Origin: Bacteroidales bacterium
Lineage (GTDB): Bacteria; Bacteroidota; Bacteroidia; Bacteroidales; UBA10428
DNA: 64,000 nucleotides
Direction: 5' to 3'
Assembly (NCBI GenBank): GCA_016930375.1
Contig: JAFGGU010000032.1
Span: 1-64,000 of the forward strand
A program made the translations under genes and the position numbers. Positions within the stretch are counted from its first letter, which is position 1. Each line of letters starts with the position of its first letter. The notes beneath the pieces were generated by a model. It searched no databases and was not told the DNA's origin. It was given only the letters and a program-made list of their open reading frames with translations. Shown here in pieces: positions 7,506 to 35,833 of this stretch.

Positions 7506-7647
7506 AGACTTAATATTTTCATCTAAAGTAAAATATTTTTCAATAAAAATGAAACCCGCGGCGGAAATATTGGTAGACAAGTATACACTTTGACAAAAAA
7601 ATAGAAAACGTATTGAAATCGAAGTGTACAAATCGGGGTGTGTTGTT

Positions 7648-8487
7648 ATGATGGTGACGGACCAGGATTATCAGCTTTTTGTATTTGCCTTAAAGAATTC
7701 TTCCAAATATGACTTCAGCCAATACTCTGAAAAGTCATTGAAGCGTAGGATATTAAAGGTATTGACTGATCATTCCATGAACATCACCAGCCTGGTTTCC
7801 CGCATCAAAAATGACCCTGAATTTGTTGAAAGCATCGTAAAAGAAATCACTGTCAACACCACTGAGCTTTTCCGTGATCCCCAGGTTTGGCAGACCATAC
7901 GCTTTACCATCCTTCCCCGCTTCAAGAACAATTCCGTTATCAATATCTGGCACGCAGGCTGTTCCACAGGACAGGAAGTATATTCCATGCTGATCCTTTT
8001 AAATGAGTTGGATATGCTTGACAAGGCCAAGGTGTATGCCACGGATATCAACACCGATGTTATGGATATAGCCCGGCAGGGAGAATACAAATACCGGTTT
8101 AACCTGGCTTACCTTGATAATTTTGACAAGGTGATCAAGGAAAATCCTTACAATTACGAGGAATACAATGATGTTCCCTATGAAAAGTATTTCAAGCTGG
8201 ATAAAGCCAACGATACGATCAAAATGCTTCCTTTTCTCAGGGAGAAAGCCGTTTTCAAAAAGCATGACCTGGTTACCGAAAACAACACGCTGTATGTTAA
8301 GTTTGACCTGATCCTGTGCCGGAATGTGATCATTTATTTTAATTATAACCTGCAGTGCAGGGTATTTGACCTTTTTCATCAGAATCTTTACGATTCCGGG
8401 TGTCTGATCATGGGAATGCATGAGACCATCCTGGGACCTCCGGCTTCCCGGTATCAAAAAAAAGGACATGCATACTTTAAAAATTGA
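7648..8487 (+). CDS. cheR: CheR-type protein-glutamate methyltransferase
   Basis: About 279 residues, starting at the ATG at 7648 or the adjacent ATG at 7651. The N-terminal helical CheR domain contains YDFSQYSEKSLKRRI and NTTELFRDP. The SAM-binding domain has motif I HAGCSTGQEVYS, the ribose-binding acidic motif YATDIN and CRNVIIYFN, all in the expected order. CheR enzymes transfer methyl groups from SAM to glutamates on coiled-coil receptors. It opens a block of signalling genes on the plus strand that continues to 21025. There is no receptor-docking TPR extension. No CheA, CheW or CheY gene is present in the window, so the methylation target must be something other than a classical local receptor. 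Confidence 0.92.
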   Translation: MMVTDQDYQLFVFALKNSSKYDFSQYSEKSLKRRILKVLTDHSMNITSLVSRIKNDPEFVESIVKEITVNTTELFRDPQVWQTIRFTILPRFKNNSVINIWHAGCSTGQEVYSMLILLNELDMLDKAKVYATDINTDVMDIARQGEYKYRFNLAYLDNFDKVIKENPYNYEEYNDVPYEKYFKLDKANDTIKMLPFLREKAVFKKHDLVTENNTLYVKFDLILCRNVIIYFNYNLQCRVFDLFHQNLYDSGCLIMGMHETILGPPASRYQKKGHAYFKN

Positions 8488-8506
8488 GTCAGTTACGATA
8501 TATTTG
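8476..8506 (+). promoter_or_regulatory. Candidate promoter for the HAMP-GAF-PAS sensor
   Basis: TTTA, a 19-bp spacer, then TATATTTG, which matches the -7 consensus TAnnTTTG exactly; the -33 box differs at one base. It starts inside the last codons of the CheR gene and lies 43 bp before the sensor ATG. It would allow the signalling block to be transcribed apart from the first CheR. Confidence 0.45.
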
Positions 8507-8549
8507 ATTAATTTGATAACCAAAAGATTATTTTTCTAAACAAGGAAAA

Positions 8550-10718
8550 ATGGAAAAAAAAGCCCACATAGCTGCCCTGAACAATAAAATCCTTCTGGGC
8601 CTATGGTTTGTCCTGTTTGCAATCGTGGTTCTCTTTGTTAACTGGTTATTCTCCAAACCTTTAAAGCAAGACGATGCGGTTATCAGTCAATTGGCTGCCA
8701 CCGACCGGCAGATTACACGTCTGAAAGCGCTGCATGCTGAATATATTTTGAACTTTGACAAAGGAGATTATCTTTTCATCTCGCCTGAAAATGTTACGGA
8801 GACAGAGGCAAAATCAGTAATCAACTCCGTAAAACAGGATCTGCAATACTATGCTTCGGTCAGCTATCTCCGCAGAAAGCCTGACATGATGAATCGCCTC
8901 GATGAATTATCCGGTTCACTTGCCGGTTTTGAAAATAATCTCAATGATTTCTTCCTGGTATACAGGGAACGGGGTAATTCAAAAAGCGGTCTCGTATCAC
9001 GCTGGAGGGAGTTGAGCAACCGGATGCTGAATGTAACCAATCCGCCTTCTTCTGATGCATTGAATAAACTGAACCTGATCAGGCGGTCAGAATCCGATTA
9101 CCTGTTGGCGCGTGATCCCCTGGTCCTGGAAAACATTTCCATGCTTTGCGAAGAGTTGCGCGGTGAAATTATGCCCGAAGAGGGAGGAATTGATCTCGCC
9201 GATCTGGATGCCTACATCTCTTTGACCGGAAGTCTTCTGGCACTTGACAAACGAATAGGCAGTGCAGAGACCAATGGCATCCTTGCCAATCTGACACGTT
9301 CCCTGAAAGAATTACCGGTCGTTTTTGAGAATACACAAAACCTGATCCGGGAATCCGGCACAAAAATCCGGTTTTGGTGGACCATTGCACGCCTTCTCGT
9401 GCTGGTACTCATTATTGCCGGATGCATTTACTTTGTTCTCGGCATAGTCGGGAGGCAGGTTTTTCTTCCCCTGAAACGGCTTGGTGGTTTCGCACAGAAA
9501 CTGGCACAAGGAGAATTGCCCGAAGAAAAAGTGATGCCCGGGAAAGTCCCCGAGATGATAGTCCTGCAGAAAAATTTGGGAAAACATGTATTGGGACTGC
9601 ACGACAAAGTAGACTTTACCCGATCGATGAACGAGAAAAGAAATGATGCCCGTCTCACCCTGGCAGGCGAAAATGATGTTCTGGGTAAGGAATTGCTTGT
9701 GCTGCAGCAACAAATACTTGAAACTGCAGAACTGCAATTGAAAAATGAGGAGGAAAACCTCAGAAGACGATACATCAATGAAGGTTTGGCCAAATTTGGT
9801 GATATCCTCAGGTCAAAAAGCAATGACATTCATGCCCTGGGCGATGCTTTCATCCGCGAGATCGTAAAATACCTGAATGCCATCCAGGGTGGATTCTTTC
9901 TGTTTGATGATACGGAGAAATCCGCTCCTGTTCTGAACCTGGTATCCGCTTTTGCTTACAACCGCAAAAAATACCTGCAGACGTCGATCGCCTATGGCGA
10001 AGGACTGGTTGGAACCTGCGCCAGGGAAAAGCAGTTTATCAATCTTACGGAGATCCCTCCGGGATACATCAGCATCACATCAGGTTTGGGAGATACCCTT
10101 CCTGATAACCTGTTGCTCATTCCGGTGCTTCAAGAAAATGAACTGATTGGCGTGCTTGAAATCGCTTCCTTGCATAAATACAAGGAACATGAAATTGAGT
10201 TTGCCCAGGAAGTAGCCCATAGTCTTGGATCAACCATTGTCAATACACGTAACAACCAGCGTACTTCCGATCTTCTGACAAAATCACAACAGCAGGCACT
10301 TGAAATGGCAGAGCAGGAGGAAGAGATGCGCCAGAATATGGAGGAATTAAAAGCCACCCAGGAGGAATCAAGCCGGCGTGAAGAGGAATTCAAGGGAATT
10401 GCCGATGCCATTGAAAGAGCGCTGTTCATCGTTGAATATGATCTTGACGGACGTATCAGGCATGTAAATGAGCGGTTGTGCATTTTCACCGGGTACACGT
10501 ACGAAGAGGTCATCGGACATACCCATCAGGAAATTTTTGAAGGCAGCCTGGCCCCTGATAAGCAGTTCTGGGAAGATGTTCAGCTCAATACAAATTATTT
10601 ATGCACCGAACAGATTAAAATCGGACAAAGCACGATCCGTTTAAAAGAACATTTCACCATTGTTCAAAACAAGGATGGTATCACTGTGAAATACATCAAT
10701 TTTGCTACAGATGACTGA
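8550..10718 (+). CDS. Membrane sensor with HAMP, GAF and PAS domains, no kinase
   Basis: 722-residue inner-membrane protein. A transmembrane helix at about 15-36 and another at about 274-298 bracket a helical periplasmic sensor of about 235 residues. A HAMP linker follows (about 299-350, LPLKRLGGFAQKLAQGE), then coiled coil, a GAF domain (about 425-565), a second coiled coil (about 565-612) and a C-terminal PAS domain (about 615-722) ending without any kinase, cyclase or MCP module. The second coil carries E598-E599-L-K-A-T, which fits the receptor methylation consensus EExxA(S/T). The last bases overlap the start of the second CheR by 8 bp, pointing to translational coupling. I infer it is a CheR/CheB-modified receptor that signals by protein contact. 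Confidence 0.85.
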   Translation: MEKKAHIAALNNKILLGLWFVLFAIVVLFVNWLFSKPLKQDDAVISQLAATDRQITRLKALHAEYILNFDKGDYLFISPENVTETEAKSVINSVKQDLQYYASVSYLRRKPDMMNRLDELSGSLAGFENNLNDFFLVYRERGNSKSGLVSRWRELSNRMLNVTNPPSSDALNKLNLIRRSESDYLLARDPLVLENISMLCEELRGEIMPEEGGIDLADLDAYISLTGSLLALDKRIGSAETNGILANLTRSLKELPVVFENTQNLIRESGTKIRFWWTIARLLVLVLIIAGCIYFVLGIVGRQVFLPLKRLGGFAQKLAQGELPEEKVMPGKVPEMIVLQKNLGKHVLGLHDKVDFTRSMNEKRNDARLTLAGENDVLGKELLVLQQQILETAELQLKNEEENLRRRYINEGLAKFGDILRSKSNDIHALGDAFIREIVKYLNAIQGGFFLFDDTEKSAPVLNLVSAFAYNRKKYLQTSIAYGEGLVGTCAREKQFINLTEIPPGYISITSGLGDTLPDNLLLIPVLQENELIGVLEIASLHKYKEHEIEFAQEVAHSLGSTIVNTRNNQRTSDLLTKSQQQALEMAEQEEEMRQNMEELKATQEESSRREEEFKGIADAIERALFIVEYDLDGRIRHVNERLCIFTGYTYEEVIGHTHQEIFEGSLAPDKQFWEDVQLNTNYLCTEQIKIGQSTIRLKEHFTIVQNKDGITVKYINFATDD

Positions 10719-11541
10719 ACTGGGAATAGTTGACATACGGGAGATCATCAGGACAGTCAAATCGGTTCACGACTATGATTTTTCCAATTATGCGCTGACC
10801 TCATTAAAACAAAGGTTGGAGCGGGTGATGAACAATTACGGCATGGCTTCTGCCGATAGTCTGATTAAAAAGATCACCCATGAACCTGCTTTTTTTGATG
10901 TCTTCCTTTATGAAATATCTGTTTCTTCCACCGAGATGTTCAGGGATCCTTCGCTCTGGCGATGGCTCAGAGAGGTATACTTTCCCGAAGCCCTGGATAA
11001 AAATATCGGAAAATTCAAAATTTGGCTTCCCGACTGTGTCTCAGGAGGAGAGTTGTATTCCCTGGCCATACTGATGAGTGAAATGGGATTGACAGATAAA
11101 GTTCAGATCACGGCGACTTACATCAGCGATAAAGTGTTGGAAATTTTGAAGAATGGTTCTTACGATACGAAGAAACTCGAGGTATCCGAAGAAAACTACA
11201 AACGGGCCAACGGCGCCAGGGAATTATCAGCCTATTACAGGACTGATAAAACAGGCATAGTAAGGAATACCTCACTACTGGCAAACGTTGAATTAAGGAA
11301 ACTAAATATTAACTTTGATAATGCGCCCCAAAACATGAAGCTGATCCTTTTCAGAAACCACCTGATATATTATAATCCAACGCAGCAGGAAAAAGTATTG
11401 CAGATGTTGCACAGATCTTTGTCAGTTTCGGGGCATCTCGTGCTTGGCATCCGGGAAAGGATTTCGGGAATTAGCGCGAGCCGCGAATTTGAAATTATCA
11501 ATGAGACTGAGAGTGTATACCGAAAAAGAATTTTGAACTGA
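10711..11541 (+). CDS. Degenerate CheR paralogue
   Basis: 276 residues from the ATG at 10711, which overlaps the sensor stop by 8 bp. The N-terminal CheR domain is well kept (YDFSNYALTSLKQRL, SSTEMFRDP). The catalytic domain has lost key SAM contacts when set beside the first CheR: motif I reads PDCVSGGELYS instead of AGCSTGQEVYS, the ribose-binding TDIN has become TYIS with loss of the aspartate, and CRNVIIYF has become FRNHLIYY. I infer a non-catalytic adaptor or a regulator that binds the same coiled-coil targets as CheR without methylating them. A weakly active enzyme is possible. CheB starts 4 bp downstream. Confidence 0.85.
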   Translation: MTELGIVDIREIIRTVKSVHDYDFSNYALTSLKQRLERVMNNYGMASADSLIKKITHEPAFFDVFLYEISVSSTEMFRDPSLWRWLREVYFPEALDKNIGKFKIWLPDCVSGGELYSLAILMSEMGLTDKVQITATYISDKVLEILKNGSYDTKKLEVSEENYKRANGARELSAYYRTDKTGIVRNTSLLANVELRKLNINFDNAPQNMKLILFRNHLIYYNPTQQEKVLQMLHRSLSVSGHLVLGIRERISGISASREFEIINETESVYRKRILN

Positions 11542-11545
11542 ATCC

Positions 11546-12106
11546 ATGAATTGTAAAGCAGTCATAATAGGCGGATCTGCCGGAAGCTTCCAGGTTGTCA
11601 CCAAAATCCTGAATTCATTGCCCAGGACTTTTCCTGTTCCTGTGTTATTATGCCTGCACCGTCTTAAACATGTCCGTTCCGGATTTGTGGAAGCCCTTTC
11701 CCTGAAATCCAACATACCGGTGGAGGAGCCCTATGATAAGGAACTTCTTAAACCCGGCAGGGCTTATCTGGCCCCTGCCAATTACCATATGTACGTTGAA
11801 CTTGCCAATCGCATAGCGCTTTCAACCGAGGATACAGTGAATCATTCCAGGCCTTCGATCGATTTGTCGTTTGTAACTGCAGCCAATGCATACCGGGAAA
11901 AGCTTATCGGGGTGATTCTGTCAGGTGCAAATAAAGACGGCGCCTATGGGCTTAAGAAAGTTCATGATAACGGGGGCATTGCCATTGTTCAGGATCCCAA
12001 TGAATGCGAGGTGAAAACAATGACACAATCTGCCCTGCAACTTACAAAGGTGGATTTCGTATATAGCACAGACCAAATCATTAGCTACTTACAAAAACTG
12101 AGATGA
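11546..12106 (+). CDS. cheB: Stand-alone CheB methylesterase domain
   Basis: 186 residues consisting only of the CheB esterase domain, without the N-terminal receiver found in classical CheB. The serine is in IIGGSAGSFQ, the histidine in LLCLHRLKH and the aspartate in SGANKDGAYG, so the catalytic triad is complete. CheB removes methyl groups from, or deamidates, receptor glutamyl/glutaminyl sites in the cytoplasm. Lacking a receiver, it cannot be switched by CheA phosphotransfer. Gaps to both neighbours are 4 bp, so it is in one operon with the degenerate CheR and the membrane GAF protein. Together with the first CheR it completes a methylation cycle. Confidence 0.92.
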   Translation: MNCKAVIIGGSAGSFQVVTKILNSLPRTFPVPVLLCLHRLKHVRSGFVEALSLKSNIPVEEPYDKELLKPGRAYLAPANYHMYVELANRIALSTEDTVNHSRPSIDLSFVTAANAYREKLIGVILSGANKDGAYGLKKVHDNGGIAIVQDPNECEVKTMTQSALQLTKVDFVYSTDQIISYLQKLR

Positions 12107-12110
12107 TCCA

Positions 12111-12899
12111 ATGACCAACCTGGGTAAATATAGAAAACTGAGCTATATAGCCATAGCTGTCATGGTTGTGACCATGCTGCTTTCATTTGCGGCGTTGTGG
12201 AATTCTTTGCTCACCAGCGACGCAAAAAATGAAGGCTGGGTGATCCTTTTCTTCCTGCTGGCGTTTTTATCAGGAGTTTTTCTGTTTTTCCTGGCTTATA
12301 AGTCTACCGATGCTCCTGAACTTGAAAACATTAAAAAGACCTCCTTTGAAGCAGGCAAGAAAGAGATTCTCCAGGAAATTGAAAAAAGAAACCAGGAAGT
12401 AGAAAAAGAGAAAATTGAAGAGGAAGACATTGACAAGTCTACGGAAGGTATTCTGGCCGGATTAAAAGGCATCAGAACAGAAACCGGTTTATGCAATAAA
12501 GTTCTGACCAATCTTGCCAATCAGCTTGGATTCGTTCAGGGCATTTTTTACGTGAAGGAAACCGGAGGGGAGCTTTTTAACGCTGCAGGCGACTATGCAC
12601 TCACCGGTATGAAGCCCAAATCTTTCAAGGCAGGTGAAAATCTTCCCGGACAGGTGGCAGTCCATAAAGCCCCGGTGACTGTTTACGATATACCGGAGGA
12701 ATACTTCAGCATTTCTTCAGGCCTGGGAAGCTCAAAACCCCGCTTTTTAATACTGGCGCCTGTGCTTTTCAAAGAGGAATGTGTTGCCGTGCTTGAACTG
12801 GCATCTTTTAAAAAGCCGGATGAATTAACCATCAAGGTTTTAAATAAAATATCATCAGAACTGGGAATCCGATTAAACAAATTTGCTGTTGCCTCATAA
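12111..12899 (+). CDS. Membrane-anchored GAF domain protein
   Basis: 262 residues. Two transmembrane helices (about 11-31 and 43-63) are followed by a highly charged Glu/Lys coiled coil (about 75-115) and a single GAF domain (about 120-260). The GAF domain shares IPEEYFSISSGLG with the GAF domains of the upstream sensor and the downstream phosphatase, which suggests the same ligand or partner. There is no output domain, so it may form mixed oligomers with those two proteins or act as a membrane tether. It begins 4 bp after CheB and ends 3 bp before the phosphatase gene. Its specific job is unknown. Confidence 0.8.
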   Translation: MTNLGKYRKLSYIAIAVMVVTMLLSFAALWNSLLTSDAKNEGWVILFFLLAFLSGVFLFFLAYKSTDAPELENIKKTSFEAGKKEILQEIEKRNQEVEKEKIEEEDIDKSTEGILAGLKGIRTETGLCNKVLTNLANQLGFVQGIFYVKETGGELFNAAGDYALTGMKPKSFKAGENLPGQVAVHKAPVTVYDIPEEYFSISSGLGSSKPRFLILAPVLFKEECVAVLELASFKKPDELTIKVLNKISSELGIRLNKFAVAS

Positions 12900-12902
12900 T
12901 CC

Positions 12903-15524
12903 ATGAACGAAGAAAAGAAATACAACATCCTTCAGGATGTCATTAAGACAGAGACGTTCATAACGGCCCTGGTGACAGGTTTGGTATTCATGCTGGCTGC
13001 CTGGATCATTGAGTTTTTACGCAACCATGTAATGATCACCCTCGCCGGCATAGGTGAAATACACCGTATGAGTCCCCTGCTCTATGTATTTGATCTTCTT
13101 CCCCTCTTCTTCATTCTTGCAGTATTCCTGCTTGACCGGCGCCGGGTAAAAGACAAAATCGCATTCACATCCCGGTTGAATGAAGGTGAATCGCGCATGA
13201 ATGCCATGGCCGATTTTGCAAAACAAATCGGGGAAGGAAATTATCATTCTCAACTGACGATTTCCACGGATCAGGATATGCTTGCCCAGTCACTCCAGCT
13301 CATGCGGGACAACCTGCTGCAGAATTTCAGGAAAGAAACAGCGCAAAACTGGATTGCCGAAGGAAAGGAAACCATCTCGGATATCCTGCGCCAGCATAAC
13401 AAAATAGAGGAATTGTCGGTTAAGGTGATACAAACCCTGGTTACTTATACCCGACTGATCCAGGGGGCCCTGTATATTTACGATGAAGAAAAGAAAATCC
13501 TGGCTACGGCAGCAACTTACGCCTATAACCGCCGGAAATACGACACTGCGGAATACAAGCTCGGGTATGGCCTTATCGGGCAATGTGCCTATGAGATGGA
13601 TTATATATACCGGACAGAAATTCCGGATGATTATGTTACCATTTCCTCCGGTATCCTGGGCGATCAGAAACCCCGGAGCCTGCTGTTGATCCCGCTCATT
13701 ACCGATGAGAAATTACAGGGTGTTATGGAATTTGCCTCCCTGGAAAACCAGATCCCCGCCCTCACCATCGAACTGATAAAAGAACTGGGCGAGATCATTG
13801 CAAGGACATTCTTCAACCTGAAGAACAACCAGCGAACAGAAAAATTACTTCACGAATCCCAGCTGATGACGCTTGAATTGCAGGAGAATGAGGAAGAGCT
13901 GCGTCAGAATGCTGAAGAAATGAGGGCAACCCAGGAGGAGCTTAAAAAATCAAATGAGCACCTTGAAAAGCAGATCCAGGAAGTTGAGAATGCGCAGAAA
14001 AGACAATACTCCCTGCTGGAAAATGCATCAGAGATCATTGCCATTTATGATGAAAACATGGTGATGAAATACGAAAGTCCTTCGGTCATCAAAATTCTGG
14101 GTTTCACACCCGAAGAAATGATGAGCGGAAAGGACATCGACCGGCTCACCCGCAAAGGCGAAACCGGTATGCGGAACATGTTCAAGCAGTTGCTGGCCAA
14201 TCCTTCTGAACCGGTCACCATTCAGTATACTTACATGAAAAAGAACGGGCAGAAGATTTTCCTGGAAGCTACCGGCCGGAACCTGCTCAGCGATGCCGCT
14301 ATTGAAGGCATCATCATCAATTCGACCGATATTACCGAACGCAAGCGTGCCGAGCGTGAAGAAAGGCTTAAGAGCAAAATGCAGGCTCTTTCTGAAAACT
14401 CTCTTGACCTGATTATCAGGTTAAGCACCGTGGGCCAGTTTTTCTATGCGAATCCCATGGTCCGCAACTTCATGGACATTGACCCCAAAGATCTTATCAA
14501 TAAAACGCTCAGTGAGATATCCGTTTCCGAAGTCCTGCACAGCTACTTCAAACAGACCATTGATACCATTAAAGCATACCCGAATAAGACATCCGCTGAG
14601 ATCACCGTGCCTGCCAAAATTGACGGAGTACAGACTGACAGGATCATGAGTTTCGCAGCCATCCCCGAATTCAATGAAAATGAGCTGGAAACCATTTTGT
14701 TTGTCGGACATGATATAACGGAAGCCAAGCAAATTGAACTCGAAATTCAGGATAAGAACCGGAAGATCGAAGATTCGATCAATTATGCACAGCGTATTCA
14801 GAGTTCCATCCTGCCTGATATCCGTGCCGTCCGTGAATACCTGCCCAAATCGTTCATTTACTATAAACCCAGGGATGTGGTCAGCGGTGACTTCCCCTGG
14901 TTCTTTACCCGTGGTCATGATATTTATATTGCGGTTGTGGATTGCACAGGACACGGCGTGCCCGGCGCGTTGCTCTCTTTTGTGGGCTATTTCCTCCTGA
15001 ACAATATTGTTGACCGCGATCGAAAAATGTCGGCGGCGGAAGTCTGCGATCTGCTGCACTTTGGCGTCAGAAAGACCCTGAAGCAGGACAGCGAGGAAGC
15101 TGAAGCCCGCGACGGTATGGATATTGCCTTCTGCAAGGTGAACCATCTGGAAAAGGAAATTCAGTATGCCGGTGCGCACAGGCCGCTTTACCTGCTCCGG
15201 GGTGAAGAACTGATCGAATACAAAGGCGACAGGAAAGCCATCGGAGGCATTCCTCACCGTAAAAAAGAAGAAGAGAATTTCACCAATTATGCCATAAAAT
15301 ACAAACGGGGTGATAAATTCTTCTTTTTCTCCGACGGACTGCCCGACCAGCTGGGTGGGCCCGAAGATAAAAAGTATTCGCCCAAACGCATACGTGACCT
15401 GATCCTGGAAAACAAGAACCTTCCCATTGAGAAGTACAGCAACCTGTTTGCAGAAGACTTTGAACTATGGAAAGGAGAAGGAAAACAAATAGATGATGTT
15501 TTATTGATCGGAATTGAATTTTAG
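12903..15524 (+). CDS. Membrane GAF-PAS-PAS-SpoIIE (PP2C) phosphatase
   Basis: 873 residues. Two N-terminal transmembrane helices (about 22-40 and 60-80) precede a short linker, a GAF domain (about 170-305), coiled coil (about 310-370), two PAS domains (about 372-485 and 490-625) and a SpoIIE/PP2C serine-threonine phosphatase (about 640-873). Metal and active-site motifs are present: VSGDF, VDCTGHGVPGAL, DGMDIAF, FFSDGLPDQ and QIDDVLLIG. The usual GDFYWF reads GDFPWF, a small oddity. The coil carries E338-E339-M-R-A-T like the upstream sensor. With SiaB- and SiaC-type genes next, it takes the place of SiaA, the phosphatase that dephosphorylates SiaC. Partner specificity is inferred from gene order. 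Confidence 0.9.
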   Translation: MNEEKKYNILQDVIKTETFITALVTGLVFMLAAWIIEFLRNHVMITLAGIGEIHRMSPLLYVFDLLPLFFILAVFLLDRRRVKDKIAFTSRLNEGESRMNAMADFAKQIGEGNYHSQLTISTDQDMLAQSLQLMRDNLLQNFRKETAQNWIAEGKETISDILRQHNKIEELSVKVIQTLVTYTRLIQGALYIYDEEKKILATAATYAYNRRKYDTAEYKLGYGLIGQCAYEMDYIYRTEIPDDYVTISSGILGDQKPRSLLLIPLITDEKLQGVMEFASLENQIPALTIELIKELGEIIARTFFNLKNNQRTEKLLHESQLMTLELQENEEELRQNAEEMRATQEELKKSNEHLEKQIQEVENAQKRQYSLLENASEIIAIYDENMVMKYESPSVIKILGFTPEEMMSGKDIDRLTRKGETGMRNMFKQLLANPSEPVTIQYTYMKKNGQKIFLEATGRNLLSDAAIEGIIINSTDITERKRAEREERLKSKMQALSENSLDLIIRLSTVGQFFYANPMVRNFMDIDPKDLINKTLSEISVSEVLHSYFKQTIDTIKAYPNKTSAEITVPAKIDGVQTDRIMSFAAIPEFNENELETILFVGHDITEAKQIELEIQDKNRKIEDSINYAQRIQSSILPDIRAVREYLPKSFIYYKPRDVVSGDFPWFFTRGHDIYIAVVDCTGHGVPGALLSFVGYFLLNNIVDRDRKMSAAEVCDLLHFGVRKTLKQDSEEAEARDGMDIAFCKVNHLEKEIQYAGAHRPLYLLRGEELIEYKGDRKAIGGIPHRKKEEENFTNYAIKYKRGDKFFFFSDGLPDQLGGPEDKKYSPKRIRDLILENKNLPIEKYSNLFAEDFELWKGEGKQIDDVLLIGIEF

Positions 15525-15550
15525 TAATATTGTAATTAAATAAATAATCT

Positions 15551-16132
15551 ATGGATAATAAAAAAGATGTGAAAGGTTTCCTTGAATTTGTATATGAGTT
15601 TTACAAATCCATGAAAGCCCATGAAATTACCTTGGTGTACGAAGGTGAAATAACCCACCAGATCACAAAGGCATTTACATCTCTCACTGAATCGAACATG
15701 TCCAAAGAAGATGAGCCAAACTCGGTACAGCGTAAGGTGTTTCATGTAATGGTGGAATGTTTGCAGAATATCAGCAAGCATGCCGATGATTTTACCTCCA
15801 ATGATTACCTTTTTTCCGGGAGAGGGATCTTCCTGGTAAGCAAGGGGGAGAACGAATACAGCGTTACCACCGGAAATGCCGTTGAAAATGATAAAATTGA
15901 GTATCTTACCGAATTGCTTGAGAACATCAACCGAATGGACAAAGAAGAACTCAAAGAATTGTACAAGAGGCAGATGAAGGAAGGCCGGCTTTCTGAAAAA
16001 GGAGGCGCCGGACTGGGTTTTATTGATATCAAAAGAAAAACCAATAAGGAGCTTGAATATCATTTCCTTCCCATTTCTGATGATACCTCATTTTTTCTGC
16101 TGACTTCAACCATTTCAAGATCTGACAATTAA
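15551..16132 (+). CDS. SiaB family protein kinase (DUF6272)
   Basis: 193 residues of a GHKL-fold kinase. The N-box lies at V68-E69-C70-L71-Q72-N73 followed by ISKHA, and the G-box is GGAGLGF at about 151-157, so ATP binding looks intact. In Pseudomonas aeruginosa SiaB phosphorylates SiaC on a threonine; it is a serine/threonine-type kinase of the anti-sigma-factor class rather than a histidine kinase. It sits 26 bp after the SpoIIE phosphatase and 16 bp before the SiaC-type gene, which is the expected order phosphatase-kinase-substrate. A related but degraded copy lies at 35303-35833. Confidence 0.88.
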   Translation: MDNKKDVKGFLEFVYEFYKSMKAHEITLVYEGEITHQITKAFTSLTESNMSKEDEPNSVQRKVFHVMVECLQNISKHADDFTSNDYLFSGRGIFLVSKGENEYSVTTGNAVENDKIEYLTELLENINRMDKEELKELYKRQMKEGRLSEKGGAGLGFIDIKRKTNKELEYHFLPISDDTSFFLLTSTISRSDN

Positions 16133-16148
16133 AATAATATAGTAACAT

Positions 16149-16523
16149 ATGGAAACAATAAAGATTCAAGGAACAGAGGATACCCCTAAAATAATACTTG
16201 ATGCCGGGAACGATATCATGGAGATTAGCGGCCGTTCTTTGCCCGAAGATGTCAGTTCATTCTATGAGCCGGTATTGAACTGGCTGAACGAATATGCCGA
16301 GAATCCCAAAAAGAAAACAGTCTTCAATTTCAAACTTACCTATTTCAATACAGCATCGTCAAAACTCCTGCTCGACATCCTCATGAAACTGGAAGAGATG
16401 CACGAGAAAGGACAGGATGTTGTGATCAGATGGCATTTCCCCGAAGATGACGAGGACATGGCCGAAGCAGGTGAAGAATATGCTGAGATAGTTGATGTTC
16501 CTTTTGAACAGGTGCCTTATTGA
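16149..16523 (+). CDS. SiaC family regulatory phosphoprotein (DUF1987)
   Basis: 124 residues, the normal length for SiaC. The motif YFNTASSKLLLDIL places a threonine at residue 68, the same number as the threonine that SiaB phosphorylates in P. aeruginosa SiaC. Unphosphorylated SiaC there binds and activates the diguanylate cyclase SiaD. Here no cyclase follows; 12 bp downstream starts a TerB/ABC transporter gene. I infer that the phosphorylation state of this protein controls the transporter, or a cyclase encoded elsewhere. The acidic stretch PEDDEDMAEAGEEYAE near the C-terminus may be part of the binding surface. Confidence 0.9.
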   Translation: METIKIQGTEDTPKIILDAGNDIMEISGRSLPEDVSSFYEPVLNWLNEYAENPKKKTVFNFKLTYFNTASSKLLLDILMKLEEMHEKGQDVVIRWHFPEDDEDMAEAGEEYAEIVDVPFEQVPY

Positions 16524-16535
16524 TATCTTGCCTGA

Positions 16536-19500
16536 ATGAGTGAGGAGATCCTAAAAGCGCTGATGCAACTGTTTGCAATTATTGCAAAACAGGATGAAGG
16601 CGTGGAAACCACCCAGGTGGAATACGTCAAAAATTTCCTGCAACAGCAGCTTAATGATGAGGAGGTGAAGGAATATTTCCTGCTTTTCAGGCAATATAGC
16701 GGCCTGGAAAATGCAGAGAACAATACGGAAAATGACGAAGAAAAAAACACACGCAAGCTCACCTCGGTAAGGGACTCCGTAAGGATACTGGGCTTGTGCA
16801 AAAAAATCAACAAGACCCTTACACAAAAACAAAAAGTAGTTGTTTTAGTCAGGCTTTTCGAAATTGTAAATGCCGACCGAAAGTTCACTGATCAGAGGAT
16901 GCAGATCATCAACACCGTTGGCGACGTATTTAAAGTTGAAAAAGAAGAGTTTGCCAGCATCGAATCTTTTGTGATCAGCAACGAAGTTGATCAATTGGAT
17001 GATGGCAATATTCTAATAATCAACGATAAGCAGGAATCTCTGCGGTCCGCAAAGAAAATTGTCACCAAACATCTTCAGGCCAATATTTTTGTTCTGAAGA
17101 TCAATAGCGTTGATCTTTACTTCTTAAAATATACCGGTAATGAGGACTTGTTCCTGAACGGATTACCTGTACGCAATGACCGTATCTATCTTTTTGCCAG
17201 CGGCAGTACCGTTAAACTCCCCAAATCAGCCCCGATTTATTACAGTGATGTCGTGGCTCATTTCATGGCTGATACCGTTAGCAGCCAGATATCCTATATT
17301 GCCCGGGACCTGGAATACAAGTTCCCCAACGGCAATATCGGGATAAAAGATATCAGTTTCTCGGAACTGCATGGTCGCCTGATCGGTATCATGGGCGCAA
17401 GCGGAGCAGGTAAAACAACCCTGCTGAACATGCTTTGCGGCATTGAACCGCCCTCCATGGGCGAAGTGCTCATTAACGGCATTGACCTGCACAAAAACAG
17501 GGAAAAACTGGAGGGCGTAATTGGCCTGGTGCCGCAGGATGACCTGCTGATTGAAGAGCTCACGGTTTACCAGAATCTGTATTACAACGCCAAACTCTGC
17601 TTCAAAGATAAAACCGAAGAGGAAATCGATGGTCTGGTCAGCAAAACCCTTCAGAACCTGGGGCTTTATGACCGAAAGGACCTGAAGGTTGGCTCTCCGC
17701 TTAAGAAAATGATCAGCGGTGGCCAGCGTAAAAGACTAAACATAGCCCTTGAGCTGATCAGGGAACCTTCCATATTATTCATTGATGAGCCGACATCCGG
17801 ACTTTCATCGCGGGATTCGGAAAATGTGATGGACCTGCTGCGTGAGCTTGCGCTGAAAGGCAAACTCATTTTCGTGGTTATCCATCAGCCCTCATCGGAG
17901 ATTTACAAGATGTTTGATAAAATGATCATCCTGGACACGGGAGGTTATATGATCTATTACGGCAACCCGGTGGAAGCCGTAATGTATTTCAAGCGTCTTG
18001 ATGCACAGATTAACAGTGAAGTCGGGGAATGCCCCACTTGTGGAAATGTTAATCCGGAACTGATCTTCAACATCATTGAGGCCAAAGTTGTGGATGAATT
18101 CGGTAATTACACCGATGCGCGAAAAGTGACTCCGCAGCAATGGGAAGAACATTTCAAGGAACAGGTCTCTTACAGCGAGTTGAAACCGGGAGAGGATTCA
18201 CCTCCGAAAAACCTGAAAATACCCGGCTGGCTGAGCCAGTTGGGAATATTTACCATCCGTGACTTCCTGTCGAAAATCAGCAACAGGCAATATGTAGCCC
18301 TGAGCCTTCTCGAAGCTCCCATCCTGGGTTTCATCCTGTCGTCCATCATACGGTATATCGAGGATCCGGATTCCGGGAAGTATGTTTTCAGACTGAATGA
18401 GAACATTCCGATTTTCATTTTTATGGCGCTGATCGTTGCACTGTTTCTCGGGCTCACCGTAAGCGCGGAGGAGATCTTCCGGGACCGGAAAATCCTTAAG
18501 CGTGAACGATTTCTTAACCTCAGCCGCTCCAGCTACCTGGTTTCCAAAATTATCATCCTGTTTTCGATTTCGGCCATACAGGCCTTTCTGTTCGTTGTGG
18601 TTGCCAACCGTTTCCTGGGCATACGCGATATGGGCTTTGCCTACTGGATCGCCCTGTTTTCAACGGCAGCCTTTGCCAATATGCTCGGACTGAATATTTC
18701 AGCTTCCTTCAATTCCGCCGTCACCATCTATATCCTGATCCCCCTTGTCATGATTCCCATGATGATCCTGAGCGGGGCCATGTTCAGCTTTGACAAATTA
18801 AACCGCTATGTGAGCCGGGTGGACAAAGTTCCGGTAATCGCCGAGATGATGGTGACCAAATGGTCCTATGAGGCTCTGATGGTGCATCAGTACAAGGATA
18901 ACAAATTCATGAAGAATAAGCTTTATGACATTGAAAAAGAAGAAAGTCAAAGTGATTTCAAAAAAGTATACTGGCTTCCCGAATTGTTTGAACGCCTGGA
19001 ACGAATCAAAAATGAAGTTGAAAACGTTAGTACTGTTAATATGTCTGCCAACGATCTCCTGGTCGTTGCCAACGAAATCATGAAGGAATCCGCCACCAAT
19101 CCGAATGTTCCCGCTTTTGAAAACACCGATGAACTGAAGCCGGGAAAATTCAGTAAACAAACAGCGGAAAGGGCTTTCGAGTATCTGTCGGCACTCGACA
19201 AATATTACGGAGATAAGTTCCAGCGCATCAGCAAGCAGAAGGAGAACTATTTTAACTATTACCTTGACAGGGATCCCGATGCCTATAACCAGCTGAGAGA
19301 CAGATACAACAATGAGGGAGTCTCCGATATCCTGCGTAAAGTATACGAGAAAAACAAGATCCTGGAATTTGACCATCAGCTGGTGCAGCATTATGACCCG
19401 ATTTACCAGGATCCCTTTGTAAAGAACCTCGCCACACTACGCACCCACTTCTATTCGCCGGTGAAGCCATTTCTGGGTAAAACCTTTGACACCTTCTGGT

Positions 19501-19610
19501 ACAATATAATTGTGATATGGTTATTGACAGCACTCTTTTATCTGGCATTGTATTATGAGTGGCTCAGGAAACTCATAGATTTGTCACAACGTTTTCAAAA
19601 GAAAAGTTGA
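16536..19610 (+). CDS. TerB-like / ABCG-type transporter fusion
   Basis: 1024 residues. The N-terminus (about 1-150) is helical and resembles the tellurite-resistance TerB fold (VVLVRLFEIVNADRKFTDQRM). Residues about 155-245 form a small beta-rich domain that could be FHA-like (EDLFLNGLPVRNDRIYLF). The ABC ATPase (about 255-480) has Walker A GASGAGKTT at 287, signature ISGGQRKRL and Walker B ILFIDEPTSGL, followed by HQPSSEI as in ABCG proteins. Five or so membrane helices follow (about 585-760), then a soluble insertion of about 200 residues and a last helix near 990-1010. Domain order fits ABCG half-transporters. The substrate is unknown; position after SiaC suggests it is the regulated output. 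Confidence 0.85.
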   Translation: MSEEILKALMQLFAIIAKQDEGVETTQVEYVKNFLQQQLNDEEVKEYFLLFRQYSGLENAENNTENDEEKNTRKLTSVRDSVRILGLCKKINKTLTQKQKVVVLVRLFEIVNADRKFTDQRMQIINTVGDVFKVEKEEFASIESFVISNEVDQLDDGNILIINDKQESLRSAKKIVTKHLQANIFVLKINSVDLYFLKYTGNEDLFLNGLPVRNDRIYLFASGSTVKLPKSAPIYYSDVVAHFMADTVSSQISYIARDLEYKFPNGNIGIKDISFSELHGRLIGIMGASGAGKTTLLNMLCGIEPPSMGEVLINGIDLHKNREKLEGVIGLVPQDDLLIEELTVYQNLYYNAKLCFKDKTEEEIDGLVSKTLQNLGLYDRKDLKVGSPLKKMISGGQRKRLNIALELIREPSILFIDEPTSGLSSRDSENVMDLLRELALKGKLIFVVIHQPSSEIYKMFDKMIILDTGGYMIYYGNPVEAVMYFKRLDAQINSEVGECPTCGNVNPELIFNIIEAKVVDEFGNYTDARKVTPQQWEEHFKEQVSYSELKPGEDSPPKNLKIPGWLSQLGIFTIRDFLSKISNRQYVALSLLEAPILGFILSSIIRYIEDPDSGKYVFRLNENIPIFIFMALIVALFLGLTVSAEEIFRDRKILKRERFLNLSRSSYLVSKIIILFSISAIQAFLFVVVANRFLGIRDMGFAYWIALFSTAAFANMLGLNISASFNSAVTIYILIPLVMIPMMILSGAMFSFDKLNRYVSRVDKVPVIAEMMVTKWSYEALMVHQYKDNKFMKNKLYDIEKEESQSDFKKVYWLPELFERLERIKNEVENVSTVNMSANDLLVVANEIMKESATNPNVPAFENTDELKPGKFSKQTAERAFEYLSALDKYYGDKFQRISKQKENYFNYYLDRDPDAYNQLRDRYNNEGVSDILRKVYEKNKILEFDHQLVQHYDPIYQDPFVKNLATLRTHFYSPVKPFLGKTFDTFWYNIIVIWLLTALFYLALYYEWLRKLIDLSQRFQKKS

Positions 19611-19627
19611 ATTTGATCATAATATTA

Positions 19628-19658
19628 TTTTTATTCATTTAATCAATCGTTATTTTTG
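19628..19658 (+). promoter_or_regulatory. Candidate promoter for the lipoprotein gene
   Basis: TTTT, a 19-bp spacer and TATTTTTG, an exact -7 match, end 24 bp before the ATG at 19683. It suggests that the lipoprotein and secreted protein genes can be transcribed apart from the transporter. Confidence 0.45.
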
Positions 19659-19682
19659 TTGAACAAAATCAAACTATGGATT

Positions 19683-20582
19683 ATGCGCAAAGCAATTGTA
19701 TATCTTCTAGTTTTACTGGCTGCAGCTGCAGGTTCCTGTAAATCAGGCGGACAAGGTAAGGATTCCGGCGAAATTCCAGATTCTGTCCTCAACCAGGGGA
19801 TTGAAATATCGGAAGATGTCATGCAGGACATTGTGCAGAACATTTCTTCTCCCGTTGAAATGGCAGCCATGATCAAGGATCTTGGCGTTCCCTACTCGAA
19901 CAGGTATATTTCCCCTACTGACCGAGTAGGAAATTTAACCACCAGTTTCCAGCAGGCGCTGAACCTGGGCATTTATGCCGCAGATCTGGGTTATTTGAAT
20001 ATGAACAACAAGACTTCGGCTGTAATTGATTACCTGACATCCATCAAGAGTTTGTCCGATGCCATCAAGGTGGGACAGTTTTTTGATTTCACCACCCTGA
20101 AGCGACTCGCCACAAACAGCAAGAATCTCGATTCACTGATGTATATTTCAGTGCACAGCTTCAACGAAATGGATAAGTATCTGCATGCGAATAACCGTAC
20201 CAACCTCAGCGCGCTGATGGTTACCGGTGTTTGGATCGAAGGACTTTATCTCGGCACGCAGGTCTACAAGATCACGCCCAGTCAAATGCTGGCCGAACGC
20301 ATTGGGGAACAGAAACTCACCCTGGATCAGCTGATGCTGATTCTTGAAAATTACAAACAGGACAAGCAGTATGCCAAATTGCTGGATGACCTGCAGTTAC
20401 TGAAAGATCTGTTTAAAACAGTCAATATTCGTATTGAAAAGGGCGAACCCGAGATGATCGAAGAGAATGGCATGCTTACCATCGTTCAGAACGATAAAAG
20501 TATCGTTGAGATTTCTCCTGAACAATTGACTGCTATCATTGCCACAACCGAGCAGGTCCGTAACAGCTTAATAAGCCTTTGA
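19683..20582 (+). CDS. Uncharacterised lipoprotein at the end of the signalling block
   Basis: 299 residues starting at the ATG at 19683; the in-frame TTG codons from 19656 lie inside the candidate promoter. The signal peptide ends in AAAAGSC, a lipobox, followed by a Gly/Ser/Lys-rich stretch typical of Bacteroidota surface-exposed or outer-membrane lipoproteins. The mature part is mostly helical with no recognised domain. It starts 72 bp after the transporter and is followed after 2 bp by a small secreted protein, so the three may work together. I do not recognise the family and give no function. Confidence 0.8.
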   Translation: MRKAIVYLLVLLAAAAGSCKSGGQGKDSGEIPDSVLNQGIEISEDVMQDIVQNISSPVEMAAMIKDLGVPYSNRYISPTDRVGNLTTSFQQALNLGIYAADLGYLNMNNKTSAVIDYLTSIKSLSDAIKVGQFFDFTTLKRLATNSKNLDSLMYISVHSFNEMDKYLHANNRTNLSALMVTGVWIEGLYLGTQVYKITPSQMLAERIGEQKLTLDQLMLILENYKQDKQYAKLLDDLQLLKDLFKTVNIRIEKGEPEMIEENGMLTIVQNDKSIVEISPEQLTAIIATTEQVRNSLISL

Positions 20583-20584
20583 TT

Positions 20585-21025
20585 ATGAAGAAATTCATCC
20601 TCATATTAGCAGTCTTTACATTCGTTTGCTCTGATTTCCTTCAGGCTCAGGATGTATCACAATTGACAGCCCAATGCGCGGCCAATGCAGGCGACGTAAT
20701 GTACCTGAAAGATTTTGTGGTGAAACTCGACCAGGGAACTCCGGGAGGAGCGCCTCCCACAGCGAGGTTTGCACTGCTTCTGAGCAAGAATGTTGTTTAC
20801 CGCTTCTCCATCTGTTCCGCACCGAATTCCGAAGGGGAGGCCGTGCTTCAGTTATTTGACATGAATACCCTGCTTGGGAGTACTTTCATCACTGCAACCG
20901 GCAAGGATTTCCCGTTCTTTGACTTCAAATGTCAGAAAACCGGCGTATATCATGTATTTATTTCTTTCAAAGAGGGCAAAGCCGGTGACGGTGTGGGGAT
21001 CATGTCTTACGTGAAGAAGCTCTAA
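20585..21025 (+). CDS. Small secreted protein, unknown
   Basis: 146 residues from the ATG at 20585; the TTG at 20579 is in frame but overlaps the previous stop. A signal peptide ends near FLQAQ. The mature protein of about 125 residues has three cysteines and alternating hydrophobic positions suggesting a beta sandwich (YRFSICSAP, GVYHVFISFKEG). No known domain is recognised. It lies 2 bp after the lipoprotein gene, so the two are very likely co-translated. Its stop codon overlaps the stop of the leftward DUF6427 gene. Confidence 0.75.
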   Translation: MKKFILILAVFTFVCSDFLQAQDVSQLTAQCAANAGDVMYLKDFVVKLDQGTPGGAPPTARFALLLSKNVVYRFSICSAPNSEGEAVLQLFDMNTLLGSTFITATGKDFPFFDFKCQKTGVYHVFISFKEGKAGDGVGIMSYVKKL

Positions 21026-35302: not shown

Positions 35303-35833
35303 ATGTTCATTGCCAAAGAATACCAGGATAGATCCCTGCTCATATACCAGGGACTGTTCACAGTAAATCTGATTTCAATATTGGGTAACCACATCAGATT
35401 GCTCCCCGATCATGACTCCATTCTTCTGCAGCGGATCTTTAAAGTATTCATTGAACTTTCTCAGAATGTTTCCTATTATTCCCATGAAAACTCGGAGATT
35501 AAAGAAGGTGTATTTTGCGGCATTGGCTGGATCTCTGTTCAGGATCTGGATGATTTTTACAGAATCACCACCGGAAACAGCATCAAGCCCGAGCATGCTC
35601 CCAAACTGGAAACGTACTGCAAGGAAATCAACGCTATGGAGGAAGAGGCTTTGAAGACCCTGAAACGTAAAACGAGAGCCCAGGCCATGCTGAGGGATAT
35701 CAATGCGCAGATCGGGCTTATACAAACGGGTTTAATCAGCGGGAGTAAACTCGATTTTGATATTACTCCTGTTAATGAAACAACGCATTACTTCAGGATC
35801 TCAGCCACTGTAAACAAAGATTCCGATCAATAA
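35303..35833 (+). CDS. Orphan, degenerate SiaB-like protein (DUF6272)
   Basis: 176 residues aligning by eye with the SiaB-type kinase at 15551. The N-box is partly kept (FIELSQNVSYYS against MVECLQNISKHA), as is the following strand (YRITTGNSI against YSVTTGNAV). The glycine-rich G-box GGAGLGF is replaced by NAQIGLIQ, so ATP binding is doubtful. No SiaC or phosphatase gene is next to it. It may be a pseudokinase that binds SiaC or another substrate, or a family branch with its own nucleotide contacts. It ends 8 bp before the sdhB stop on the other strand. Confidence 0.75.
   Translation: MFIAKEYQDRSLLIYQGLFTVNLISILGNHIRLLPDHDSILLQRIFKVFIELSQNVSYYSHENSEIKEGVFCGIGWISVQDLDDFYRITTGNSIKPEHAPKLETYCKEINAMEEEALKTLKRKTRAQAMLRDINAQIGLIQTGLISGSKLDFDITPVNETTHYFRISATVNKDSDQ

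Follow-up and report, generated by a model that had tools for sequence, protein, structure and literature searches.

Which protein does SiaC act on when the gene behind it encodes a transporter? This question is raised by positions 15551 to 19610 of a 64,000-nucleotide stretch of Bacteroidales DNA (GenBank:GCA_016930375.1, contig JAFGGU010000032.1; hereafter the window), where genes for a SiaB-type kinase and a SiaC-type protein are followed directly by the gene for a TerB/FHA-like/ABCG transporter, in the place that SiaD, a GGDEF cyclase, takes in Pseudomonas aeruginosa, where this phosphorylation switch is known for its part in the control of biofilms. Our analysis points, with fair probability, to a SiaABC partner switch that controls an ABC exporter-type transporter through docking of unphosphorylated SiaC on the TerB region. 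A functional link between SiaC and the transporter has good support, whereas we infer that the binding is direct, where on the transporter it takes place, with which polarity the switch works, that it activates and does not inhibit, and which substrate is moved.

The SiaABC module and the transporter

The features on which the argument rests are as follows:

12903–15524, plus strand: SiaA-type phosphatase, membrane-anchored, with GAF, two PAS and SpoIIE/PP2C domains (Pfam GAF_2, PAS, SpoIIE)
15551–16132, plus strand: SiaB-family protein kinase (PF19788; NF038262 above cut-off)
16149–16523, plus strand: SiaC-family STAS-like phosphoprotein (PF09345, 146.7 bits, cut-off 24.5)
16233–16241, plus strand: SiaC R29-S30-L31, aligned with the positions contacting the SiaD stalk in P. 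aeruginosa
16350–16352, plus strand: codon of SiaC T68, the putative phosphosite by alignment with P. aeruginosa SiaC
16536–19610, plus strand: TerB/FHA-like/ABCG half-transporter, 1024 amino acids (Pfam TerB, ABC_tran and ABC2_membrane, all above cut-off)
16536–16976, plus strand: TerB domain, residues 1–147 (PF05099, E=9.7e-8; helical in the AlphaFold2 model)
16755–16811, plus strand: conserved TerB motif KLTSVRDSVRILGLCKKIN, residues 74–92, candidate SiaC docking site from conservation and the AlphaFold2 model
16998–17285, plus strand: FHA-like beta-sandwich, residues 155–250 (AlphaFold2 model and structural comparison)
17295–17975, plus strand: ABC ATPase domain (PF00005, residues 271–421)
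18237–18815, plus strand: ABC-2 type membrane domain (PF01061, residues 568–760)

The initial annotation had read this region as SiaB and SiaC followed by a transporter in place of SiaD and starting 12 bp after SiaC; the open reading frames and the 12-bp gap were confirmed, and the families scored above their cut-offs. That reading did not include the SiaA gene just upstream, the two secreted proteins of the transporter module or the FHA-like domain that separates TerB from the ATPase. As the SiaA-type gene precedes SiaB, the whole SiaABC module is present, with the transporter occupying the place of SiaD. The PP2C part of the phosphatase matched the SiaA structure 6K4E with E=9.2e-35 and retained the catalytic Asp/Gly positions in the alignment; the NCBIfam SiaA equivalog matched this part alone and stayed below its cut-off (168 versus 700 bits). 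SiaB scored 175 bits (cut-off 85, E=7.7e-52) against NF038262 (SiaB_fam_kinase) and 84 bits, below the cut-off of 225, against the narrower equivalog NF038264, and when aligned to the SiaB chain of 6KKO it was found to retain the VxxExxQN motif. SiaC, at 94 bits below the cut-off of 150 for the equivalog NF038265, could be aligned without gaps to 6KKO, 6KKP, 7E6G and 6K4F. Its T68 lies in the context YFNTASSK, gap-free against YLNTSSIK of P. aeruginosa SiaC, in which T68 is the known phosphosite (PMC7647112). The phosphosite assignment made in the initial annotation was thereby upheld, and T68 was present in all 75 transporter-adjacent SiaC of the co-directional type (see below). Judged by sequence, the system is to be classed as SiaABC after its three signalling proteins and not as SiaABCD, because both a SiaD gene and the SiaD-contact residues were looked for and were absent.

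The transporter is an ABCG-type half-transporter, in which a single chain carries the ATPase before the ABC-2 membrane domain and the motifs are intact; GxSGxGKT, SGGQRKR, DEPTSG and HQPSS (Walker A, signature, Walker B and H-loop) were invariant among 21 relatives. Pfam recognized TerB at residues 8–142 with 32.8 bits (cut-off 24.4). An AlphaFold2 model of residues 1–250, with a predicted local distance difference test score (pLDDT) of 88.9 and a predicted template modelling score (pTM) of 0.86, consisted of a helical TerB part, whose structural neighbours were the TerB-like 2H5N and 2OU3, and a beta-sandwich at residues 159–227. Structural comparison with VIA-align, covering mainly residues 135–249, returned FHA domains in 48 of the 50 rows with Z between 6 and 7.7, and Foldseek gave for this part an E value of 0.015 at best, while no Pfam match was obtained for residues 155–250. 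None of the structures in either list identifies the transporter as such. Because the Z values are modest and Pfam sees no FHA domain, "FHA-like" appears to be a fair term for this model-based assignment, and a stronger one is not used. A literature search for fusions of TerB with ABC transporters in Bacteroidetes returned nothing relevant.

Readthrough or fusion of SiaC and the transporter was also considered. In the window both are read in the same phase, yet a pair of stop codons lies between them, and among relatives neither the spacing nor the phase is constant; this candidate was rejected.

Linkage and co-occurrence of SiaC and the transporter

When 84,980 species genomes were scanned, 80 named loci were obtained; all of them, or nearly so, were Bacteroidota records, distributed over Bacteroidales, Marinilabiliaceae, Cytophagales and a few other taxa. 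SiaC was located directly upstream of the transporter and in the same direction in 47 of these 80 loci, with 6 more cut by contig ends, and the same order was found in a set of 30 loci made up of the window and loci of related genomes. In the related genomes the order SiaA-SiaB-SiaC-transporter was recurrently extended by the genes for a predicted lipoprotein (LP1) and a small secreted protein (SP2), usually with CheR, CheB and GAF genes upstream. Such an arrangement is far beyond chance. A second clade of transporters is encoded convergently to a different SiaB-SiaC pair, with 20 SiaC of the convergent kind, and since convergent genes cannot share one transcript, the explanation that SiaC is simply carried along in an operon is weakened. 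The transporters of a third class are accompanied by LP1 and have no adjoining SiaC.

The phylogenies agreed with this division. Co-directional SiaC formed one clade with support of 98/97, including two extra rows, one of them a contig-end case; the convergent SiaC grouped together (89/90), and the transporter tree was split in the same way as that of SiaC. It was also noticed that several transporter paralogues (L037:8648-11812, L104, L105, L106, L107, L210, L218, L227 and L235) have neither an adjoining SiaC nor the TerB motif.

Among 60 related genomes, SiaC was present in 39 and the transporter, scored at E ≤ 1e-60, likewise in 39, and the two lists were identical genome by genome; 17 families possessed both and 21 neither, these co-occurrence counts being inflated by shared ancestry. 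In a sample of the phylum (148 genomes), SiaC occurred in 8 and a full-length transporter in 4, all four being SiaC-positive. Where the transporter does not adjoin SiaC, 24 of 25 genomes encode SiaC elsewhere, compared with the 8 of 148 in the phylum sample. Because convergent pairs exist and the association extends across families, linkage by chance is unlikely.

These data bear on the possibility that SiaC is merely co-regulated with the transporter and acts on one of the GAF proteins, on a histidine kinase or on an unlinked target that it shares with the eight other SiaC paralogues. The genome of the window does contain nine SiaC genes, the majority of which have no transporter beside them, and as many as 21 occur in relatives; in other taxa the neighbour of SiaC is a cyclase or a histidine kinase. 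However, the convergent pairs persist without a shared transcript, presence and absence of SiaC and transporter agree genome by genome, and the transporter-linked SiaC fall into clades of their own with contact residues of their own, so that we regard mere co-regulation as unlikely. Several of the SiaC paralogues carry Ser instead of Thr at position 68; most paralogues stand alone.

A further possibility is that SiaC still controls cyclic di-GMP (c-di-GMP) through a cyclase encoded elsewhere, as would be expected from its canonical role in P. aeruginosa (PMC8457831, PMC7647112). However, no GGDEF domain was found in the genome assembly of the window, which is 85% complete, and it was also missing from 38 of 39 SiaC-positive relatives and from 28 of the 30 named genomes that have the operon; altogether, 66 of the 69 SiaC-transporter genomes examined lacked it. 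As positive controls, the same search detected GGDEF in 8 of 14 control genomes, and 8–9 copies in two genomes of a sister class that contain a SiaC-cyclase pair. The near-absence of GGDEF means that c-di-GMP is unavailable as the usual SiaC output in these organisms. A route through an unlinked cyclase was therefore rejected, GGDEF being absent from nearly all the genomes concerned, and this explanation is close to refuted.

Partners of SiaC, contact residues and the candidate docking site

Other SiaC genes are followed by other kinds of protein. At two loci of the sister class (L148 and L150), the gene after SiaC encodes a GGDEF cyclase that has a SiaD-like stalk, and further SiaBC-cyclase loci were found (L242 and L243). 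Histidine kinases provided with the same stalk as the cyclases follow SiaC at three sister-class loci (L149:9591-10655, L237:418-1482 and L239:394-1437), a plasmid of Azospirillum (L245) carries both a cyclase and a histidine kinase (L245:4908-5843) after SiaC, each with a stalk, and in Caballeronia (L249) SiaC precedes a GGDEF protein. The SiaD-type stalk motif, K[ILMV]x[KR][IL][SG]D..Q in the cyclase and kinase partners, resides in the N-terminal helix of the kinases, for example as KITRISDSTQ. A SiaC-controlled histidine kinase seems to be undescribed in the literature consulted. Since a cyclase, a kinase or a transporter may come after SiaC, the gene in this position appears as an interchangeable effector.

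In the SiaC-SiaD crystal, the stalk is held by T68, N67 and S69, and D29 and Y31 touch residues of the SiaD stalk helix (PMC8457831). Compared with P. aeruginosa, SiaC of the window has the substitutions D29R, Y31L, S69A, I71S, M75L, R103D and L107A, and it keeps Y65, N67 and T68, which are invariant across the transporter-linked SiaC sets. Where the neighbour is a cyclase or kinase, SiaC invariably has D, E or Q at position 29 and Y at 31; of the 95 transporter-adjacent SiaC, by contrast, 94 have R29 and one has K, and position 31 is L, I or M throughout. Some of the changes S69A, R103D and L107A are shared with the cyclase-linked SiaC of the sister class, and thus only positions 29 and 31 discriminate the type of partner. 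On the aligned residues, SiaC matches the pattern expected if the phospho-switch were kept and the partner surface re-tooled.

The gene order had been taken in the initial annotation to suggest a new SiaC target. This holds as a functional link, with the transporter as a plausible direct target whose binding we infer, on the evidence of co-occurrence in 60 genomes, adjacency in two gene orders, near-absence of GGDEF, the contrast between partners and residues 29/31.

A candidate for the docking site was sought on the transporter. The motif KLTSVRDSVRILGLCKKIN, which includes KLTSVRDSV, stands out most within the TerB domain and is near-invariant in the co-directional class, with S81 invariant; the version in the convergent class reads KR(T/I)(S/G)xxSV(K/R)(I/V)L, and the motif is missing from ten transporters without adjoining SiaC. 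In the AlphaFold2 model, the motif starts at loop 62–74, which is predicted to be disordered (pLDDT below 50) and leads into helix 78–94. When SiaC was modelled joined to TerB-FHA, with the five residues lying between the two frames in the window as the tether, pTM was 0.76, compared with about 0.6 expected by rough reckoning for random placement of SiaC, and the confidence of the two ten-residue blocks surrounding the motif rose from 42 and 58 to 67 and 73. The joined model thus favours docking of SiaC near the TerB motif. With a profile of the SiaD-type stalk, position 74 was the best of 1006 positions on the transporter.

Several points weigh against this reading. The contrast at residues 29/31 is partly confounded with phylogeny, and the TerB motif is also retained in transporters whose SiaC is located elsewhere in the genome. 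The joined model is a single construct with a 5-residue tether, a different alignment and no control construct. Of 300 trials with column-shuffled profiles, 196 gave an equally high stalk score at some position and 27 did so locally. The TerB motif as a match to the SiaD stalk is therefore not significant and was kept as a hint only.

With these reservations, the following course is proposed. Input through GAF, PAS and perhaps CheR/CheB would reach SiaA; SiaA would remove, and SiaB add, the phosphate on T68 of SiaC. Unphosphorylated SiaC would dock on the cytoplasmic N-terminal region of the transporter, most likely at the loop-helix junction of TerB (residues 74–92), and, by analogy with the two-fold stalk dimer of SiaD, may alter how active the transporter dimer is or how it assembles. 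Once phosphorylated by SiaB, SiaC would let go of the transporter again.

The polarity might also be reversed, with phosphorylated SiaC as the active form and the FHA-like domain of the transporter reading phosphorylated T68, as FHA I of Rv1747 reads phosphorylated T237 of Rv2623. The FHA-like fold between TerB and the ATPase would suit this possibility, and there is the precedent of a phosphothreonine protein regulating an FHA-ABC transporter (PMC5549992). However, the phosphothreonine-binding GR and SxxH-type residues were not visible among the conserved positions of the FHA-like domain, as far as can be judged from sequence, and Pfam does not recognize the domain as FHA. The domain is also present in transporters without adjoining SiaC, and T68 lies within the folded STAS-like domain and not in a flexible peptide. 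Reading of phosphorylated T68 was ranked below docking on TerB because the phosphothreonine-binding residues are not evident, and we hold it to be quite improbable.

Neighbouring genes and comparison with known systems

The module is part of a longer run of co-directional genes at 7624–21025, in the order CheR, HAMP-like/GAF/PAS, CheR, CheB, GAF, SiaA-type, SiaB-type, SiaC, transporter, LP1 and SP2, with successive gaps of 62, -17, 4, 4, 3, 26, 16, 12, 45 and -4 bp. The flanking parts are:

7624–12899, plus strand: CheR, HAMP-like/GAF/PAS, CheR, CheB and GAF genes (Pfam)
19656–20582, plus strand: LP1, predicted lipoprotein, accompanying the transporter; no Pfam family
20579–21025, plus strand: SP2, small predicted secreted protein, overlapping LP1 by 4 bp; no Pfam family

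The genes at 7624–12899 probably form the input side of the SiaABC-transporter operon, and methylation by CheR/CheB may feed into SiaA. Two CheR, one CheB and GAF proteins are thus encoded within the SiaABC operon, outside any chemotaxis cluster; the two domains of the methyl-accepting chemotaxis protein (MCP) signal type in this genome are on a different contig. At the other end, LP1 adjoins the transporter, and SP2 then follows LP1, in all three transporter classes and in differing gene orders. An indirect influence of SiaC on the transporter, through LP1/SP2 or through transcription, could be imagined, given that both proteins accompany the transporter in all classes. However, LP1 and SP2 look exported, so that cytoplasmic SiaC cannot meet them, and the operon contains no gene for a DNA-binding protein, which makes this route very improbable. 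Another kinase of the SiaB family lies at 35303–35833 (PF19788; NF038262 above cut-off); it has no adjoining SiaC and is preceded by a secreted protein of 577 amino acids. A scan for promoters and terminators gave many weak matches, none of which was used.

The proposed docking of unphosphorylated SiaC on the TerB region may be set beside known systems. With SiaABCD of P. aeruginosa (PMC8457831, PMC7647112) the locus shares the PP2C phosphatase SiaA, the SiaB kinase, T68 of SiaC, the gene order and the position of the effector directly after SiaC. It differs in that the effector is a TerB/FHA-like/ABCG transporter and not a GGDEF cyclase, that SiaA carries GAF and PAS domains, that the SiaC contacts 29, 31, 69, 71, 75, 103 and 107 are changed, and that nearly all genomes with a transporter-linked SiaC lack c-di-GMP synthesis. 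The SiaBC-cyclase and SiaBC-kinase loci likewise place SiaB-SiaC before the presumed target, but there the target has a SiaD-like stalk, to which the TerB motif of the transporter bears a loose similarity at best.

The architecture of the effector loosely resembles that of Mycobacterium tuberculosis Rv1747 (system with PknF and Rv2623; PMC5549992, PMC3908365). Rv1747 too is an ABC half-transporter that begins with an FHA-type region; a Ser/Thr kinase is encoded together with it, and a phosphothreonine protein controls it. Rv1747, however, has no TerB, a Hanks-type kinase, genuine phosphothreonine-binding FHA domains and no SiaC. Switches of the RsbT/RsbU/RsbV type and of the HsbA/BgrV type also combine a kinase, a PP2C phosphatase and a STAS-like protein, phosphorylation deciding the binding partner; their targets are anti-sigma factors or cyclases and not a transporter (general knowledge and PMC8457831).

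Among the open-licence papers searched, none on a link between SiaC and a transporter was found. To our knowledge, DUF1987/SiaC proteins are known only as activators of cyclases. DUF1987 proteins have been proposed in general to modulate adjacent proteins (PMC8457831), and the transporter would give this proposal a concrete second class of target, with a probable docking region and specificity residues named. Whether SiaC is a general exchangeable output adaptor, one kinase/phosphatase/STAS-like core fitted to cyclases, to histidine kinases and, in Bacteroidota that lack c-di-GMP, to a TerB/FHA-like/ABCG transporter gated directly through docking on TerB that depends on threonine phosphorylation, is in our view evenly balanced. 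If true, an ABC transporter would be the target of a post-translational partner switch; it would show how a phospho-switch swaps its outputs, and it would explain the presence of up to 21 SiaC genes in Bacteroidota that have no GGDEF.

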